Source: Lewinella sp. IMCC34183 (lineage in GTDB: Bacteria; Bacteroidota; Bacteroidia; Chitinophagales; Saprospiraceae). Taken from it: 64,000 bases of DNA. A model generated the notes under the pieces. The model saw only the letters and a program-made list of their open reading frames with translations, did not search any database and had not been told where the DNA came from. A program made the position numbers and the translations under genes. Below, piece after piece: positions 48,800 through 55,834 of this stretch. Positions within the stretch are counted from its first letter, which is position 1, and the number at the start of each line of letters is the position of its first letter. The stretch is taken from contig NZ_QMEM01000001.1 of assembly GCF_003390915.1 (NCBI RefSeq), forward strand, positions 868,001-932,000, written 5' to 3'.

Positions 48800-50638
48800 T
48801 CAGCTGAGGGTGGACAAATCCCGTACGAAGGGGCGGTACCCAAGCTGCTGCGCCCGGGGGAGCAGGTCGCGGGCCGCCTGGGGATCGGTAAAAGTACCCA
48901 GAATGACCTTATGCACGCCACCATCGTCGGCCACCACGACCGGCAGATCGAACTCCCGCTCGAGCCGGGTCACCAGCTGCAGGGCGTTGCTGGTTTCCCG
49001 GAAAGCACTGATTTGCAGGCCGAAGCCCATTCGTGGCTGCGGTTCCGCCCGCACACGAAGCACGGGATCCGCGGGTGGGGAAGGATCCTGTGCAAGGGTG
49101 GGTGTGGCCCCGACGTTTCTGAGCCGCAGGGCTTCCGTTACCGCCCGTTCCGCGTTGACCCGCCCGTAGCCGAATCGGGGGCTGTAGCCCGATGCGCCGT
49201 ATTCGCCCGGACTGCCGATCCGGTCGGCTGTACGCTCGAGGATGTCCTTTACCTGGGTCGCCGTAAGGCCGGGATGGGCCGTCAGCAGGAGGGCGCAGAT
49301 GCCGGCGACAAGCGGTGTTGCTCCGGAGGTTCCGCCAAAGTGCTTATGGTACGGGCCGCGGTCGCGTCCGTCGACGTAGTATCGCTTTGCGGCCGGCGCC
49401 TGGGTGTTGCCGGGGTCCCAGCTGGCCCGGGCGGCTAGCAGGGGCCAGCCGCCGTCGCTCGGAGCGACTACGGACAGGCCGTCGCCGGTATTGGAATAGG
49501 CCGGATGGGTATCGTTGCTGGTGGACGCACCGACGGCGATAACTCCCGGCATTCGGCAGTAATAGTTGAGTACCGCCCGGCCCTCGTTGCCGCCGGCGAA
49601 GAGTACCACACAACCCAGGCCGCCCCGGCCCTGGGTGATCGCCTTGCGGATGGCCCGTTCGTGGAAGGGCCCGGGCCGAAAGCGGTCGTCTACGGTACCC
49701 CAGCTGCAGGAGATGACGTCGGCCCCGTGCTGCAGGCAGTGATCGAACATCCGCTCGGTCAGGAAGGCAGAGTAGGTCAGACCGTGCAGGGGCATGAGCC
49801 GGCAGCCGGGGGCCGCCCCGACGATACCCGTCCCGTTGGCCGCGGCCACGGCTACGCTGGCGCAGGGCGTGCCGTGGCTGCCGTAAACGGCCCCGCGCGG
49901 TACGCCGGCGGCACCGCTCGATACGGTGAGGGGGGCCACGGACTTACCCCGCAGGTCGGGGTGTTCGAGGTCGAATCCGTTATCGATAACGGCGACGGTC
50001 ACCTCCGCCGAGCCGAGGTTGTCCAGCGCGCGCCAGGCCCCGGGTACCCGCGCATCGGCGCCCTCCCGCGTGGCGAAGCCGGGCACGCCGGGTACGTATC
50101 CCGGATTGTGGAACGACCACTGCTGGTCGTACAGCCCGTCGCGGGGCTCGCTGAAGTACTGTTCGAGGGGTATGTCCAGATCGGGGACGGCCGAGTCGAC
50201 CATCGCCAGCTGATCGAGTTGGCGGGCGACGTGCAGCGGGTTGCGACTCCGTTCGGTAACGGAGAGAACGACCGTATTGTCATCCCGCCGCTCGACGACC
50301 CGCAGGTGGTACAGATCAAAGACCCGCTGGCTTTCCTCCTCCCCTACCCCCTCCGCGAGCCGGCAGTACACAATGCCGGTCGGGACCACGGGCCGGTCAT
50401 CACCCGTGGCGAAGTACACGTGGGTTCCGGTTGCTACATCGGGCCGCCGCCGCGCCGCATCGAGGCCGCGTTCCACGTCGCCGTCGGGCAGCTTAACCAG
50501 CTCGAAGCCGCCCAGCTCCGGGCGGGGGTTTTCCGCGCCGTCCGGGGGGGAGGCGGCCTGTTGACGGAGGCCAACGAATTCTTGGCTCTTGCGGAGGGGG
50601 AGGGGGCCGTGGGTGGTCGGTACGGTGAGGGTGGACAT
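48800..50638 (-). CDS. Subtilisin-like serine protease (S8) with C-terminal SPOR domain
   Basis: The 612-residue protein carries the complete subtilase triad: Asp219 (VAVIDNGFDLEHPDL), His255 (YGSHGTPCASVAV) and Ser438 (HFGGTSGATPLVAG), with Asn351 (FAGGNEGRA) as oxyanion residue. Residues about 528-608 form a SPOR domain (GLQISAFRETSNALQLVTRLE, VHKVILGTFTDPQAARDLL), which binds denuded peptidoglycan in other proteins. There is no signal peptide: the start is MSTLTVPTTHGPLPLRKSQEF. So either export is unusual or SPOR has another role. The N-terminal 150 residues look like a propeptide. The ECF sigma gene is divergent. Confidence 0.88.
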   Translation of the reverse strand: MSTLTVPTTHGPLPLRKSQEFVGLRQQAASPPDGAENPRPELGGFELVKLPDGDVERGLDAARRRPDVATGTHVYFATGDDRPVVPTGIVYCRLAEGVGEEESQRVFDLYHLRVVERRDDNTVVLSVTERSRNPLHVARQLDQLAMVDSAVPDLDIPLEQYFSEPRDGLYDQQWSFHNPGYVPGVPGFATREGADARVPGAWRALDNLGSAEVTVAVIDNGFDLEHPDLRGKSVAPLTVSSGAAGVPRGAVYGSHGTPCASVAVAAANGTGIVGAAPGCRLMPLHGLTYSAFLTERMFDHCLQHGADVISCSWGTVDDRFRPGPFHERAIRKAITQGRGGLGCVVLFAGGNEGRAVLNYYCRMPGVIAVGASTSNDTHPAYSNTGDGLSVVAPSDGGWPLLAARASWDPGNTQAPAAKRYYVDGRDRGPYHKHFGGTSGATPLVAGICALLLTAHPGLTATQVKDILERTADRIGSPGEYGASGYSPRFGYGRVNAERAVTEALRLRNVGATPTLAQDPSPPADPVLRVRAEPQPRMGFGLQISAFRETSNALQLVTRLEREFDLPVVVADDGGVHKVILGTFTDPQAARDLLPRAQQLGYRPFVRDLSTLS

Positions 50639-50794
50639 AACCGAAAAGTAGGGATTGCAGCACCGACGGGGCGGGTACCGGACAAAAATAGCGGTGGCCT
50701 GGCAGCGGCGGAGCGGAAGAAACCGTTTACCTTACGGTAATTCCACCGCGGCCCGCCGACCAACGGACCGGGGTATTTTACCCGTCAGCTTTTT

Positions 50795-51346
50795 ATGGAT
50801 TACGCAATTTGCCTGGAGAACGATGAAGAACGTTTCGTAGCCGCTCTCTTGCGGGGCGACCGCGAGGCGCAGCGTGTACTCTACGAAACCTATTACAGCC
50901 CCCTTATGGCCATCTGTCAGCGGTACACCGGCACCGAAGACGAAGCCATGGACTTGCTGCACGAAAGTTTTATCAAGATCTTCGGCAAGATCGGGCGCTA
51001 CGAAAGCGGCACGGCGTTACTGGCCTGGATGCGCCGCATCACGGTCAATACCGCCATCGACCACTACCGGCGCACGGTACGGCGGCGCACCGAGGACATC
51101 GAACGGGCCTACCAGGTCAGTTCCGATCTCCCCGACGTCATCAGCCAGTGCTCCGCCCGGGAGATACTGGCTGCCGTGCAGCAGTTGCCGCCGACCTACC
51201 GTACCATCTTCAACCTTTACGTAATTGAAGGGTACAGCCATAAAGAGATTGCCGAACAGTTAAATATTACGGATTCCACTTCACGGTCGAACCTGGTCAA
51301 GGCGAGAAGTAAGCTGCAGAAAGCGCTGACCGCTCCAGGACGCTAG
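50795..51346 (+). CDS. RNA polymerase sigma factor, ECF type
   Basis: The 183-residue protein has sigma-2 (about 15-80: REAQRVLYETYYSPLMAICQRY, EDEAMDLLHESFIKIFGKI, TALLAWMRRITVNTAIDHYRR) and sigma-4 (about 128-178: LPPTYRTIFNLYVIEGYSHKEIAEQL, then SNLVKARSKLQKAL) without sigma-3, as in ECF factors. The stop is 4 nt before the next gene. That partner is not a standard anti-sigma but a fusion of a three-repeat cytoplasmic region, a membrane helix and an outer-membrane-like barrel. The subtilase gene starts 157 nt away on the other strand. Confidence 0.92.
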   Translation: MDYAICLENDEERFVAALLRGDREAQRVLYETYYSPLMAICQRYTGTEDEAMDLLHESFIKIFGKIGRYESGTALLAWMRRITVNTAIDHYRRTVRRRTEDIERAYQVSSDLPDVISQCSAREILAAVQQLPPTYRTIFNLYVIEGYSHKEIAEQLNITDSTSRSNLVKARSKLQKALTAPGR

Positions 51347-51350
51347 TATA

Positions 51351-52877
51351 ATGAAACAAGAAACGAACCCCTTTGACGACCTGATCCGGCAACGGATCGC
51401 CGACCTCCCGCCGGGCTCCGCCCGGGGATGGGAGGGATTGGAACGCCGGCTCGACGGGAGCGAAATGGCTGATGCGGCTATTGCCGATAAGCTCAATTCG
51501 CTGTCCCCCACAGCGGCTCCGGCCGGCAGCTGGTCTACCATGGCGAGCAAACTGACCGCCGCGGAAACCGAAACGGCCGCCGCGGTAGACAGTGCCCTGG
51601 CCAGCGGCCTGCAACAGGCAGGACCGGTAGCCCCTACCGGTTGGGCGCGCCTGGCCGCCCGACTCGAACTCATCGGCCAACGCCGTGAGATGGTAGTCTG
51701 CCTCAAAATTTCCGAGGCTGCCCTGTTGATGAGCCTGCTGCTTATCGGCCTCCGCTTCATCTCCTGGGCGGAAGCCAGTCCGCCGCTGGCAAACGCTGCC
51801 GCCGCCACGGGCCAGGCTTTCCCCATATCCGAAACCCCCACCGCACCCGCGGTACCCGCAGTATTGCCAGCCCTGCCCCTGTCCAACGAATTGCCCGAAT
51901 CCGCGGCCACCGGGACCGATGCTATTGCTGTTCCGCCGACCCAAAATTCCGGCACGCGCGCCGTTTCGCCGCTGCCTGCTTCACCCATCGCGGCACTCAC
52001 GCTCGGAGACGCCCCCTTGCTTGCTCCGTCGCTGGCGGGAATGGCGGTCGCGGGCGTGAACGGACTGGACTACGAGGTGACCCGGGAAGATCAGGGCCCC
52101 TTTGTCCCCCTTAAGCTTGCAGGCCTGTTCGGCAGTGAACCGGCACGCTACTACCTCAACCTGTTCGTTTCGCCGGTGGACCTCAACCAGGTGATCACCC
52201 AGGAAAACGCCCGCCTCGGCATTGAGGCCCAGCGCAAACTGTCTTTAGGCTACAGCGTCGGCTCGCTGCTGGACGTGACGCAGGGCAAGAACGGCATTCA
52301 GATCGGACTGATCTACGGCAACCGTTCCTACGTCCCCGCTGAAATACTCCGGATCGAGCAGGACTCCGCCTTCACCCCTCAGGACGAGAACGTGCGCTAC
52401 GGCCGCCTTACTTACCGCACCCTGTCGCTGCCCCTCAACTACGAGCGCGAGCTGTTCGCCAACGACAAGTGGCGCCTGACCGGTGGTGTTGGCATGTCGA
52501 TGAATATCATCCTGGCCTCCGAATTCCAGCTGGCCGACAACTACACGAAGGACGACCTGGAGCGCGTGATCGACCGTTTCGTCGCCGTCAATAAGGTGAG
52601 TACCGACGGACGCGCCTCCAACAGCCGCCGCAACATTCTGTATCCCTCCGTGGGGTACCTGCAGGGCGGCTCGATCTTTCAGAACAGCAGCCTTTACCTC
52701 GCCGGCAACCTTCGGGTGGAGCGGTTGCTGACCGATCGCTGGAGCCTCTACTTCGCTCCGACGGTCAGCCGGCTCGTTACCGTGCGAGCAACCGACGGCG
52801 GGAAGGGGCCCCTCGAGGACCGTATCCACAACACCATGCTGCGGTTCGGTACCCGGCTGCGGCTATCGAATAAGTAG
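51351..52877 (+). CDS. Predicted envelope-spanning fusion: three Trp-repeat cytoplasmic region, TM helix, linker and outer-membrane beta-barrel-like domain
   Basis: The 508-residue protein starts 4 nt after the ECF sigma gene. Residues 8-36, 41-72 and 78-109 are three related helical modules, each ending in a GW/SWxxLxxxL motif (RGWEGLERRL, GSWSTMASKL, TGWARLAARL; Trp27, 61 and 98). A membrane helix follows (about 116-138: CLKISEAALLMSLLLIGLRF), then a 120-residue Ala/Pro-rich linker, then about residues 265-508 with beta-strand patterns (YYLNLFVSPVDLN, LSLPLNYERELF, MLRFGTRLRL). The first part looks like an anti-sigma region, the last like an outer-membrane barrel. Whether one chain can span both membranes is the question. 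The family is unassigned. Confidence 0.7.
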   Translation: MKQETNPFDDLIRQRIADLPPGSARGWEGLERRLDGSEMADAAIADKLNSLSPTAAPAGSWSTMASKLTAAETETAAAVDSALASGLQQAGPVAPTGWARLAARLELIGQRREMVVCLKISEAALLMSLLLIGLRFISWAEASPPLANAAAATGQAFPISETPTAPAVPAVLPALPLSNELPESAATGTDAIAVPPTQNSGTRAVSPLPASPIAALTLGDAPLLAPSLAGMAVAGVNGLDYEVTREDQGPFVPLKLAGLFGSEPARYYLNLFVSPVDLNQVITQENARLGIEAQRKLSLGYSVGSLLDVTQGKNGIQIGLIYGNRSYVPAEILRIEQDSAFTPQDENVRYGRLTYRTLSLPLNYERELFANDKWRLTGGVGMSMNIILASEFQLADNYTKDDLERVIDRFVAVNKVSTDGRASNSRRNILYPSVGYLQGGSIFQNSSLYLAGNLRVERLLTDRWSLYFAPTVSRLVTVRATDGGKGPLEDRIHNTMLRFGTRLRLSNK

Positions 52878-52941
52878 GGCCCGGGCGTTAAACTTATCTT
52901 AGTGCGCCAACCCCGCTCCGCCGGGCCAACGTTTTCCGACC

Positions 52942-54531
52942 ATGACCAGACTGCTATTCACGGGAGCCCTGTTCCTGACCCTCGCCGTATCGGCCCAGGA
53001 TCGCTCGCCGCTACCCACCACCGACGAAGAAGCGCGGGAGATCGCCGCCACCATCGTGACCGACGACCTGCGCCGCCACCTCACCGTTCTCTCGGCCGAC
53101 GACATGGAAGGGCGCGAAACGGGTGAGCCCGGCCAGAAACGGGCCGCGGCGTACCTCGCCGGGCAACTGGCCGAACTGGGATACCCCGCTATCGGCGAGA
53201 ACGGCGGATACTTCCAGACCATCAAATTCAGTCGGCAGAAGTGGAACACGATTGGCATGAAACTTAACGGCCGCGACCTGCGCCACCTCTGGGAGTTCTA
53301 CAGTGCTCCCAGCCGGAACACCGACCGCGACAGCGTTGCCATCGACGCCATTACTTTCCTCGGCTACGGGATTGACGATCCGGCATACAGCGACTACGCC
53401 GGCCGCGACCTGCGCGGAAAGACGATTATGATCTTTTCGGGGGAGCCCAAAGGCCGGGACGGCAATTTTCTGGTTTCCGGATCGAAGGACCCCAGCGAAT
53501 ACAGCCTCGACACGGGCAGCAAGCTCCGGATCGCCCGCGACCACGGCGTGGAAACGGTACTCGTGATCGACCCCTCCTTCCGGAAAAACGTACAGGACGT
53601 CCGCCGGGAGACCCTGGACGGACGCCTGCGGATGACCGACTTTACGGAGGCGGAGCGGCAGGAAGCCAATAGTGTATTCATAACCTCCGACCTGGCCCGC
53701 GAGATCCTGGGCAAGGACTACCGCAAGGTCGTCAAGGCCCGCAAGCGGCTGGAGCGTACCGGGCGATTCCGGGCGGTCGAGGTGCCGACCGACCTGCGCA
53801 TTTACCAGGATAAGGAAAGCCGGGAACTGATCGGGGAGAACGTGCTTGGCTTTCTCGAAGGCAGCGACCCTGACCTGTCGGACGAAGTGGTGGTCGTCAG
53901 CGCCCACTACGATCACATCGGTAAGCGCGGCGACGCCATCTTCAACGGGGCCGACGACAACGGTTCGGGCAGCAGTACGGTGCTGGAACTGGCGGAGGCC
54001 TTCGCCCTGGCCAAGCAGGAGGGCCGGGGACCGCGGCGCAGTGTGCTATTCCTGTGGGTTAGTGGCGAAGAAAAAGGGCTGCTGGGTTCCGAATACTACT
54101 CCACCCATCCCGTCTTCCCGCTGGAGAACACCGTAGCGGACATCAACGTCGACATGGTGGGCCGTATCGACGACGCCCACGCCGGCAACCCCAACTACAT
54201 CTACGTGATCGGCAGCAACCGCCTGAGTACCGAGCTCCACGACATCAACGAAGCGGTGAACCGCGATTTCACCCAGCTCGACCTGGACTACAAGTACAAC
54301 GCGAAGGACGATCCCAACAACTTTTACGAGCGTTCGGACCACTACAACTTCGCTGAGAAGGGCATCCCCAGTATCTTCTTTTTCAACGGTACCCACGCGG
54401 ATTATCACCGGGATACCGATACGATCGAAAAGATCAACTTCGAGAAGATGGCCCGCATCGGGCAACTGATCTTCTACAACGCCTGGCAGCTGGCCAACCA
54501 GGACAAGCGCATCGAGGTAGACGTAAAGTAG
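52942..54531 (+). CDS. M28 family zinc aminopeptidase with PA domain
   Basis: The 529-residue enzyme has a signal peptide (MTRLLFTGALFLTLAVSAQ). An insert of the PA type (about 110-300, LGYGIDDPAYSDYAGRDLRGK) splits the chain, and the M28 domain carries the two-zinc ligands: VSAHYDHIG, FNGADDNGSGSS, VSGEEKGLLGSEYY, NVDMVGR and THADYHRDTD. It cleaves N-terminal residues from peptides in the periplasm. It is 64 nt downstream of the sigma/fusion pair, without a clear promoter, and so may be part of their transcript. It converges with the HD-PycTM gene. Confidence 0.94.
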   Translation: MTRLLFTGALFLTLAVSAQDRSPLPTTDEEAREIAATIVTDDLRRHLTVLSADDMEGRETGEPGQKRAAAYLAGQLAELGYPAIGENGGYFQTIKFSRQKWNTIGMKLNGRDLRHLWEFYSAPSRNTDRDSVAIDAITFLGYGIDDPAYSDYAGRDLRGKTIMIFSGEPKGRDGNFLVSGSKDPSEYSLDTGSKLRIARDHGVETVLVIDPSFRKNVQDVRRETLDGRLRMTDFTEAERQEANSVFITSDLAREILGKDYRKVVKARKRLERTGRFRAVEVPTDLRIYQDKESRELIGENVLGFLEGSDPDLSDEVVVVSAHYDHIGKRGDAIFNGADDNGSGSSTVLELAEAFALAKQEGRGPRRSVLFLWVSGEEKGLLGSEYYSTHPVFPLENTVADINVDMVGRIDDAHAGNPNYIYVIGSNRLSTELHDINEAVNRDFTQLDLDYKYNAKDDPNNFYERSDHYNFAEKGIPSIFFFNGTHADYHRDTDTIEKINFEKMARIGQLIFYNAWQLANQDKRIEVDVK

Positions 54532-54547: not shown

Positions 54548-55834
54548 TCAGTTAAACAGATCGAATACCTGGGCCGCGCCGTGCTGGTGGTTGTCGTAGA
54601 GCGAGGCCGCGATAAAGGCCGCTACCGCCAGGATGATGCCGTAGAGAAACACGTTGTAACAGATGCGCAGGTACATGTACTTTTTAGCCAGTACCACGCC
54701 GAGGAAGTAAAGGTCGCGGGTCATGGAGGAATAGAGAAACTCCTCGTCGCGGATCATCTCCATCATGCCGAAGTGGAAGTCATCCAGCTTCATATTGTAA
54801 AAATTGCCGAAGAAGAGCAGGTTGCTCTGGCGGTTCTGGATATCCTCCAGGCCGGTATTTCCTTCGGTCACCTTCGGGCGGGTGGCCTGGATGGCGTAAT
54901 ACAGCGAGCCGAGGCAGACGCCGACCAGGATGATGGACGGCAGGGTCAGGTGGGGATTGCTGTCGAGCTTGGGAAAGAGGTTGGCCGCCGATATACTTAG
55001 GATGATGGCATTGACCGAAAGCATGATGTTGGCCTTATTGTCGGCGATGCTGCTCAGGTTGATGTGGGTGCGGTAGGTGGTGCGGTACATGGTTTCCACG
55101 CCGCGGCCGGGCTTGAGGTCGGGATCGCGGTTGCCTGGGTCCTTTTTGCTCCGGCTCCGTTTTTTCTTGTTCTTCTTGTCCTGCTTGAATTCCGCCAGCG
55201 TACTCGGGGTCGCGTCGGGCAACAGCGCCTTCTTGCGTTTGTAGAGCTGCTTGACGTGCTTGCCCTTGAGCGGCCCGTAGCGTTCACGCGCGGCCTCGGT
55301 GTGGTACTCGTGGTCGAGCATAAAGGCCAACTCGAAATCGATCCATTGCTGGTCCGACATGACCATGTCGCGGGTAAGGGCGAATTCCTGGCGCACCCGA
55401 CCGCAGCGGTCCCAGTAACTGACGTCGCCCAGGTGGCTGAGGTCGGCGTCGGCAAGCAACTCTTCCAGCAGCGACTGCGGGCGCTGGGGCATGCCGGTGG
55501 CCATGATGGCTCCGCGAATGGCGGCGAAGAGGCCGGGGTCGTCAATGCCGTTGGAGTGCAGGAAGTCCCGCGCCAGTTCCGCGCTTCGCTCTTCATGCCC
55601 GGCGTATCCTCCGGCGTAACCGGTATCGTGAAACCAGCCGGCCAGGCGCAGGGCCAGGAGATCGCTTTCACTCAGGTCGTAGTCCTGAGCCAGCTCTTCG
55701 GCCGCTTCGACTACGGCCACCGTGTGCTGAAAGTTGTGGTAGACATAGCGAGGATCGATGTTCTTTCGCAGGTAGGTCTCCACGTAGCTCTCCGTTTGGG
55801 TCAGCAGATCGGCCGAATTCGTGGTTGGGTACAT
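54548..55834 (-). CDS. HD phosphohydrolase fused to a PycTM (Pycsar effector-type) membrane domain
   Basis: The 428-residue protein has an N-terminal HD domain (about 10-200): YHNFQHTVAVVEAAEEL (His33, His37), AGWFHDTGY (His69, Asp70) and ADADLSHLG. A very basic linker (QDKKNKKKRSRSKKD, about 218-234) leads to a C-terminal domain (about 245-428): YRTHINLSSIADNKANIML and VNAIILSISAANLFPKL, then two more helices (SIILVGVCLGSLYYAIQAT, FLYGIILAVAAFIAASLY). This is the PycTM pattern of Pycsar anti-phage effectors, in which cCMP or cUMP triggers membrane damage. No pyrimidine cyclase lies nearby. Confidence 0.88.
   Translation of the reverse strand: MYPTTNSADLLTQTESYVETYLRKNIDPRYVYHNFQHTVAVVEAAEELAQDYDLSESDLLALRLAGWFHDTGYAGGYAGHEERSAELARDFLHSNGIDDPGLFAAIRGAIMATGMPQRPQSLLEELLADADLSHLGDVSYWDRCGRVRQEFALTRDMVMSDQQWIDFELAFMLDHEYHTEAARERYGPLKGKHVKQLYKRKKALLPDATPSTLAEFKQDKKNKKKRSRSKKDPGNRDPDLKPGRGVETMYRTTYRTHINLSSIADNKANIMLSVNAIILSISAANLFPKLDSNPHLTLPSIILVGVCLGSLYYAIQATRPKVTEGNTGLEDIQNRQSNLLFFGNFYNMKLDDFHFGMMEMIRDEEFLYSSMTRDLYFLGVVLAKKYMYLRICYNVFLYGIILAVAAFIAASLYDNHQHGAAQVFDLFN

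Follow-up and report, generated by a model that had tools for sequence, protein, structure and literature searches.

A probable single-chain trans-envelope anti-sigma factor with tandem tryptophan hairpins beside an ECF sigma gene in Lewinella

Two adjacent genes in a 64,000-nucleotide stretch of the genome of Lewinella sp. IMCC34183 (hereafter the window) very probably encode an ECF sigma factor and an anti-sigma factor that spans the envelope in a single chain, a type of pair named Dma/Das in Bacteroides. We favour this reading because of the architecture of the second protein (the partner), its strict pairing with one clade of sigma factors, a lower limit on the length of its tether, the charge bias around its membrane helix, a conserved promoter motif and the published pairs of the same kind. 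The initial annotation of this DNA had suggested that sensor, transmembrane relay and anti-sigma factor might be one chain; anatomy and gene pairing support this in part, and the concept itself is not new, the layout being already described in the available text on Dma/Das. New relative to the published text available are the near-universality of the layout in one family, the minimum length of the tether, the promoter conserved before the pair and the tandem arrangement of the hairpins, with some overlap with the founding 2024 Dma paper possible, and we regard the window pair as a Dma-type system that is unusual for its tandem modules. If one protein both monitors the outer membrane and keeps a transcription factor bound in the cytoplasm, an envelope-stress circuit could hardly be shorter.

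In the mechanism that we propose, three tryptophan hairpins on the cytoplasmic side would hold the sigma factor at the inner membrane, and the tether would cross the periplasm, linking the inner-membrane helix to an outer-membrane barrel. The barrel, presumably inserted by BAM, would report the state of the outer membrane, be it failed insertion, damage or a bound ligand. When anchoring is lost, proteases would cut the chain on its periplasmic side and then within the membrane, and the freed sigma factor would transcribe its own operon from GCAGC-N17-CGTT, remaking sigma factor and sensor, together with other genes.

The gene pair and the anatomy of the partner

The features of the pair, with window coordinates, are as follows.

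50795..51346, + strand: ECF sigma factor gene, 183 aa (Pfam, sigma tree)
51351..52877, + strand: partner gene, probable Dma-type anti-sigma/outer-membrane barrel protein, 508 aa (sequence, AlphaFold2 model, fold matches)
51372..51455, + strand: Trp hairpin module 1, residues 8-35, Trp27 (hairpin profile)
51471..51554, + strand: Trp hairpin module 2, residues 41-68, Trp61 (hairpin profile)
51588..51668, + strand: Trp hairpin module 3, membrane-proximal, residues 80-106, Trp98 (alignment)
51690..51761, + strand: membrane helix, residues 114-137 (AlphaFold2 model, hydrophobicity; N-terminus placed in the cytoplasm by charge bias)
51768..52136, + strand: Ala/Pro-rich tether, probably disordered, residues 140-262 (ten-residue block pLDDT 25-33, composition)
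52137..52874, + strand: predicted 8-stranded outer-membrane-type beta-barrel, residues 263-508 (model, fold matches, weak PF13568)

The first gene encodes a clear ECF factor (Pfam Sigma70_r2, 7.7e-15; Sigma70_r4_2, 2.9e-18), as the initial annotation had called it, and the positions given there for the sigma frame, the 4-nt spacer (51347-51350) and the 508-residue partner were exact. The nearest named relatives are from Neolewinella, at 64% identity, which places the window in that genus or very close to it, within the Bacteroidota.

Several elements that had been read from the letters of the partner alone were recovered by computation. It has a single hydrophobic segment, at about residues 113-142, in agreement with the one membrane helix proposed, and the suggested Ala/Pro linker of 120 residues corresponds to a stretch of 123 (residues 140-262) in which Ala makes up 21% and Pro 15%, compared with 10% and 4% over the remainder of the protein. 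The three related modules around Trp27, Trp61 and Trp98 each form a similar two-helix hairpin, and a hairpin profile finds all three; when the four loci of the window's genus are left out of the profile, they score 15.6, 20.4 and 7.7 bits, the third being the weakest, with the profile covering only about residues 92-106 of module 3. At the same threshold of 5 bits, no hairpin was found in 1000 residue shuffles of the partner's N-terminus.

An AlphaFold2 model of the whole partner shows the hairpins as helix pairs, followed by the membrane helix, a disordered tether and strands. The partner models are based on seven sequences and their confidence is low at the N-terminus: the mean pLDDT of the full-length model is 47.6, which is limited confidence, and ten-residue blocks average 34-47 up to residue 110 and 34-81 across the barrel region. 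When residues 1-150 were modelled separately, the result contained helices only (mean pLDDT 56.5), and in this second model the second helix of module 3 runs into the membrane helix as one continuous helix (97-141). At this joint K119 and E122 are conserved in at least 90% of 32 sequences.

The initial annotation had allowed that a structure model might contain no barrel; the model contains one, with eight strands between residues 266 and 506. Its fold matches NspA (Z 16.8, rmsd 2.7 over 154 residues) and also OmpA and OmpW, all three with Z of 16-17, which is consistent with the C-terminal outer-membrane barrel that the annotation suggested. All fold matches with Z of at least 13 are membrane barrels, nearly all of them natural outer-membrane proteins and one a designed membrane barrel, and soluble barrels such as PsbO come further down the list, with Z of about 9-10. 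Sequence families give less. The Pfam family OMP_b-brl_2 (PF13568) matches the partner with 18 bits, below its cut-off of 27, and apart from one relative outside the family (L053), whose barrel reaches 34 bits, Pfam and NCBIfam yield only weak barrel matches or matches at chance level for the partner and its relatives. No FecR-family domain was found in the partner with Pfam (E up to 1), no TonB-dependent receptor match with Pfam, no match of any kind with NCBIfam, and no known anti-sigma family with either collection; a sequence search of the PDB returned a single match at E 0.26, which is chance level.

Conservation of the pair, its hairpins and its tether

We searched for the partner in 199 genomes of the GTDB family to which the window genome belongs, a family made up mostly of environmental bacteria. 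The full-length sequence has matches in 127 genomes and an N-terminal profile in 183 (at E of 0.001 or less, in a few cases weakly), which together cover 185 genomes, two of them through the full-length search alone. Among the 127 primary matches, a script placed the end of a sigma frame within 160 nt of the partner's open-frame start in 119, and inspection added two more adjacent sigma genes (in L013 with an overlap of 11 nt, in L110 across a gap of 232 nt), giving an upstream sigma gene in 121; the remaining six loci are cut by contig ends. From the 58 genomes matched by the profile only, 33 loci were fetched and every one has the sigma gene. Homologues that mostly lack a sigma gene, an outcome that the initial annotation had considered, are therefore not what is found, and the one-chain anatomy, with an anti-sigma-like N-terminus, helix, tether and barrel beside an ECF gene, is conserved across the family. 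The cases of this layout in the available published text come from gut Bacteroidales (PMC13088901, PMC9308784). That the layout occurs in nearly every genome of the family suggests that envelope monitoring of this kind is basic to the phylum.

The annotation had also guessed that relatives exist elsewhere in the phylum, and rightly, since the full layout occurs outside the family, within the class. A barrel profile was run on 395 genomes sampled across the class and matched 86, six of them inside the family. From outside the family we fetched 24 loci: in 14 the layout is complete and includes a sigma gene, and in the other 10 no sigma gene lies nearby, a point against the reading. Nine of these ten are short frames of 232-313 aa and the tenth (L073) is one of 587 aa; seven further outside loci, chosen for length, all have the full layout and a sigma gene. 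Searches of plasmids found no relatives.

In a midpoint-rooted tree of 29 sampled family sigma factors, 19 Dma-adjacent sigma factors from outside the family and 27 paralogues from the window genome itself, the 29 family sequences form one clade (support 0.871), which joins the 19 outside sequences before any of the 27 paralogues. The nearest paralogue is L006, followed by L227, L228, L214 and L215, and these genes, too, precede hairpin-like proteins. The tree and the partners of the paralogues together indicate that the pairing looks old and that the type of sigma factor tracks the type of partner.

The number of hairpins varies. At least two were found in 146 of 153 family proteins and fewer in the other seven, the commonest numbers being two (76 proteins) and three (49); in one 823-aa protein (L174, 3348-5816 of its locus, + strand) nine or ten tandem hairpins precede the helix, depending on the version of the profile. 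Outside the family a single hairpin prevails (15 of 21 relatives, with none found in two), and the remaining four, which belong to a single further family of the class, have four or five. Such tandem arrays raise the question of whether one receptor holds one sigma factor or several.

Hairpins also occur beside other sigma genes of the same genome. Of 28 sigma-like loci, 6 are directly followed by a frame that the hairpin profile matches, against 0 of 827 control frames. These six include the window's own locus, whose sequence went into the profile, and among the remaining five matches four are weak (3.6-7.2 bits). Three more hairpin-like proteins after ECF genes (L002, L005 and L007) were recognised by eye; they have one or two Trp hairpins and a membrane helix followed by about 100-125 residues, which leaves no room for a large barrel. 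By eye, this short C-terminal part looks helical. In L006, L215 and L227 a tether and a probable barrel come after the hairpins, the barrel with weak Pfam support in L006 and L215 and none in L227. The partner frame at L228, which also follows an ECF gene, ends about 115 residues past the helix. One cytoplasmic unit carried by different sensors is what would be expected of an anti-sigma module. A phrase search of the literature other than the 2024 Dma and EcfO papers found no description of tandem or repeated anti-sigma domains. We can formulate a wider proposal, which we consider unlikely: that the hairpin of about 29 residues is an undescribed anti-sigma unit of the Bacteroidota, used singly or in tandem on different periplasmic or outer-membrane sensors, and that barrel-anchored Dma chains with 2-10 copies store several sigma factors, which one event at the outer membrane would release as a graded burst with the copy number as gain.

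Direct coupling between sigma factor and hairpins, computed over 147 pairs, gave no significant signal relative to simulations that preserve the phylogeny. In 4 of 30 such simulations the top score was higher than that of the strongest observed coupling, between sigma M52 and residue 97, which adjoins Trp98. The ten best observed couplings averaged 1.40, above the 20 shuffled pairings (1.06) but below the simulations (1.45). On these grounds we rejected coevolution as proof of contact between the sigma factor and the hairpins.

The tether, taken from the end of the helix to the barrel, measures 117-271 residues in 121 proteins (median 164), 118-226 in 33 further family proteins (with L206 unreliable) and, beyond the family, 115-196 in 21 relatives. 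It is therefore never shorter than 115 residues in 175 measured relatives, and this with a method that would permit lengths down to about 20-30 residues. The length of the N-terminal open frame is far more variable (45-369 residues). A floor common to three sets of sequences suggests a chain that must bridge the periplasm; at a span of about 0.3 nm per residue, 115 residues would reach about 35 nm, and the floor thus amounts to a measurable prediction about periplasmic span. The orientation of the chain can be predicted from its charges: Lys and Arg are richer before the helix than after it in 104 of 121 relatives and poorer in four, which places the N-terminus on the cytoplasmic side.

Alternative readings and published systems

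Three other readings of the partner have to be weighed against a Dma-type anti-sigma factor. The protein might be a polyprotein, in which the helix is an internal signal peptide that is always cut, leaving a small anchored anti-sigma factor and a free outer-membrane barrel. Ala-Glu-Ala directly after the helix of the window protein (residues 140-142) would fit a signal-peptidase site, and 52 of 121 relatives have a loose small-x-small motif at that place, although a motif of this looseness will often arise by chance; the strict A-x-A form is present in only 5 of the 121, and these counts led us to reject internal cleavage as a general rule. Free chains, moreover, need no tether of a given length, yet the floor lies at 115-118 residues in all three sequence sets, and we give this reading a small chance. 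A second possibility is that the partner is simply an outer-membrane protein whose unusual N-terminus does not bind the sigma factor, and that it is co-transcribed with a sigma factor that regulates it. Binding of the sigma factor is indeed something that we infer, and the coevolution signal, as described above, does not reach significance. Such a protein would not, however, be expected to pair strictly with one sigma clade, nor would its N-terminal unit be expected after other sigma-like genes of the same genome and absent from the control frames, or on L002, L005 and L007, which cannot accommodate a large barrel; in addition, same-layout pairs restrain the sigma factor in Bacteroidales, according to the available text of two reports (PMC9308784, PMC13088901). 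We hold it to be very improbable.

The C-terminal region might also be a periplasmic beta domain that lies outside the outer membrane. The low confidence of the model and the presence of soluble barrels such as PsbO in the fold list leave room for this, but every match in the upper part of that list is a membrane barrel, PF13568 is matched weakly by the partner and by some of its relatives, and the length of the tether is constrained; there is scarcely any chance, in our estimate, that this reading is correct. The reading as a Dma-type anti-sigma factor is the one that we retain, and it can be set beside several known systems.

Cell-surface signalling by FecI, FecR and a TonB-dependent transducer uses three proteins, with the barrel being that of a TonB-dependent receptor. 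The window pair resembles this relay in the path from an outer-membrane barrel through an inner-membrane anti-sigma factor to an ECF sigma factor, but here the path would be one chain with an 8-stranded barrel, and the chain has no FecR-family or receptor match. With the class I anti-sigma domain (ASDI) factors the partner would share a cytoplasmic anti-sigma domain before a membrane helix, although it matches none of the known anti-sigma families. According to the available text of one paper, an ASDI neighbour stands beside only 6% of Bacteroidetes ECF genes (PMC7406223). Anti-sigma domains thus seem to be missing beside most ECF genes of the Bacteroidota, and the Trp hairpin is a candidate to fill this gap.

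The closest counterparts are Dma1/Das1 and Dma2/Das2 of Bacteroides thetaiotaomicron, for which the available text describes a dual membrane-spanning anti-sigma factor in one chain (PMC13088901). The likeness, which is one of layout and not of compared sequences, comprises an N-terminal anti-sigma domain (predicted for the window protein), a helix, a long disordered tether, a barrel and an adjoining ECF gene, all in the Bacteroidota. The difference lies in the three tandem Trp hairpins of the window protein, as against the one N-terminal anti-sigma domain that the same text gives for Dma2. The sigma partners of Dma belong to ECF21; in our tree the window sigma factor groups with other Dma-adjacent sigma factors of the class. 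Loss of a Dma protein reportedly frees the sigma factor and raises vesiculation. The delta-dma2 phenotype is stated to require das2 (PMC13088901). A literature search for Saprospira together with dual membrane-spanning found no paper.

As far as the accessible text goes, the pair M0N98_03760/61 of Phocaeicola vulgatus has the same layout, a transposon insertion in its anti-sigma gene raises the expression of 14 genes, a small regulon, and its sigma gene is induced by an envelope-acting toxin (PMC9308784). This pair and EcfO-Reo share with ours a predicted anti-sigma factor that spans the periplasm, ends in an outer-membrane barrel and is encoded 3' of the ECF gene; on their side, the regulon as described includes nigD genes and affects O-antigen (PMC9308784, PMC13114119).

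The upstream motif and the neighbouring genes

The following features flank the pair.

50701..50706, + strand: GGCAGC, putative -35 of the ECF promoter of the operon (conserved upstream of the sigma gene in genus relatives)
50724..50729, + strand: CGTTTA, putative -10, 17 nt after GGCAGC (genus alignment, family motif count)
50731..50737, + strand: CTTACGG box just past the -10 (conserved in aligned genus loci)
52942..54531, + strand: M28 peptidase gene, possible operon member (64 nt 3' of the partner gene)

Loci of the genus share upstream of the sigma gene the pattern (G/A)GCAGC, about 17 nt, CGTTTA and then CTTACGG (50701-50737 in the window). Over the family, GCAGC-N15-19-CGTT is present in 105 of 136 upstream regions and in none of 136 equal stretches inside the sigma genes, a control that consists of coding DNA, and the 105 regions are not independent events because upstream regions are homologous. 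The spacing is 17 in 90 instances, 16 in 15 and 15 in one, with one region holding two. This motif is likely to be the promoter recognised by the operon's own sigma factor, and its ECF-promoter form suggests autoregulation. A scan of 50500-53000 found no sigma-70-type promoters and no terminators.

A promoter motif makes the regulon searchable, and in this genome exact-motif searches distinguished no regulon members beyond the operon from chance. GGCAGC-N16-18-CGTTTA has three sites against one for the reversed control, and GCAGC-N17-CGTT has 38 against 25, of which 30 were looked at individually. The other copy of CGTTTANCTTACGG in the genome was rejected as a promoter, as it directly follows an inverted repeat that is terminator-like and has no -35. 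Over 100 family genomes, GCAGCA-N16-CGTTW occurs at 570 sites against 269 for a reversed control that is unmatched for codon phase, with the count above the control in 82 genomes and below it in nine; in the window genome itself there are four sites against four. This excess hints at a few extra sites per family genome. At one site (L239), not above chance, GCAGC-N17-CGTT lies 46 nt before a possible start within a longer frame; the protein, of 374 aa, has an N-terminus resembling a signal sequence and is a possible member of the regulon.

The M28 peptidase gene is found at the same place in seven of nine loci of the genus (six distinct genomes) and is absent within 1.5-kb flanks of two genus relatives, L011 and L012, so that it may share an operon with the sigma-partner pair in some species. 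Divergent from the sigma gene, at 48800-50638 on the - strand, lies a subtilase (S8) with a C-terminal SPOR domain (Pfam), which likewise occupies this place in seven of the nine genus loci (six distinct genomes), L011 and L012 being the exceptions. On the other side, at 54548-55834 of the - strand, an HD domain (2.8e-8) is joined to a Pycsar-effector membrane domain (PF18967, E 2.8e-30), and a role of this protein in defence or nucleotide signalling is possible.
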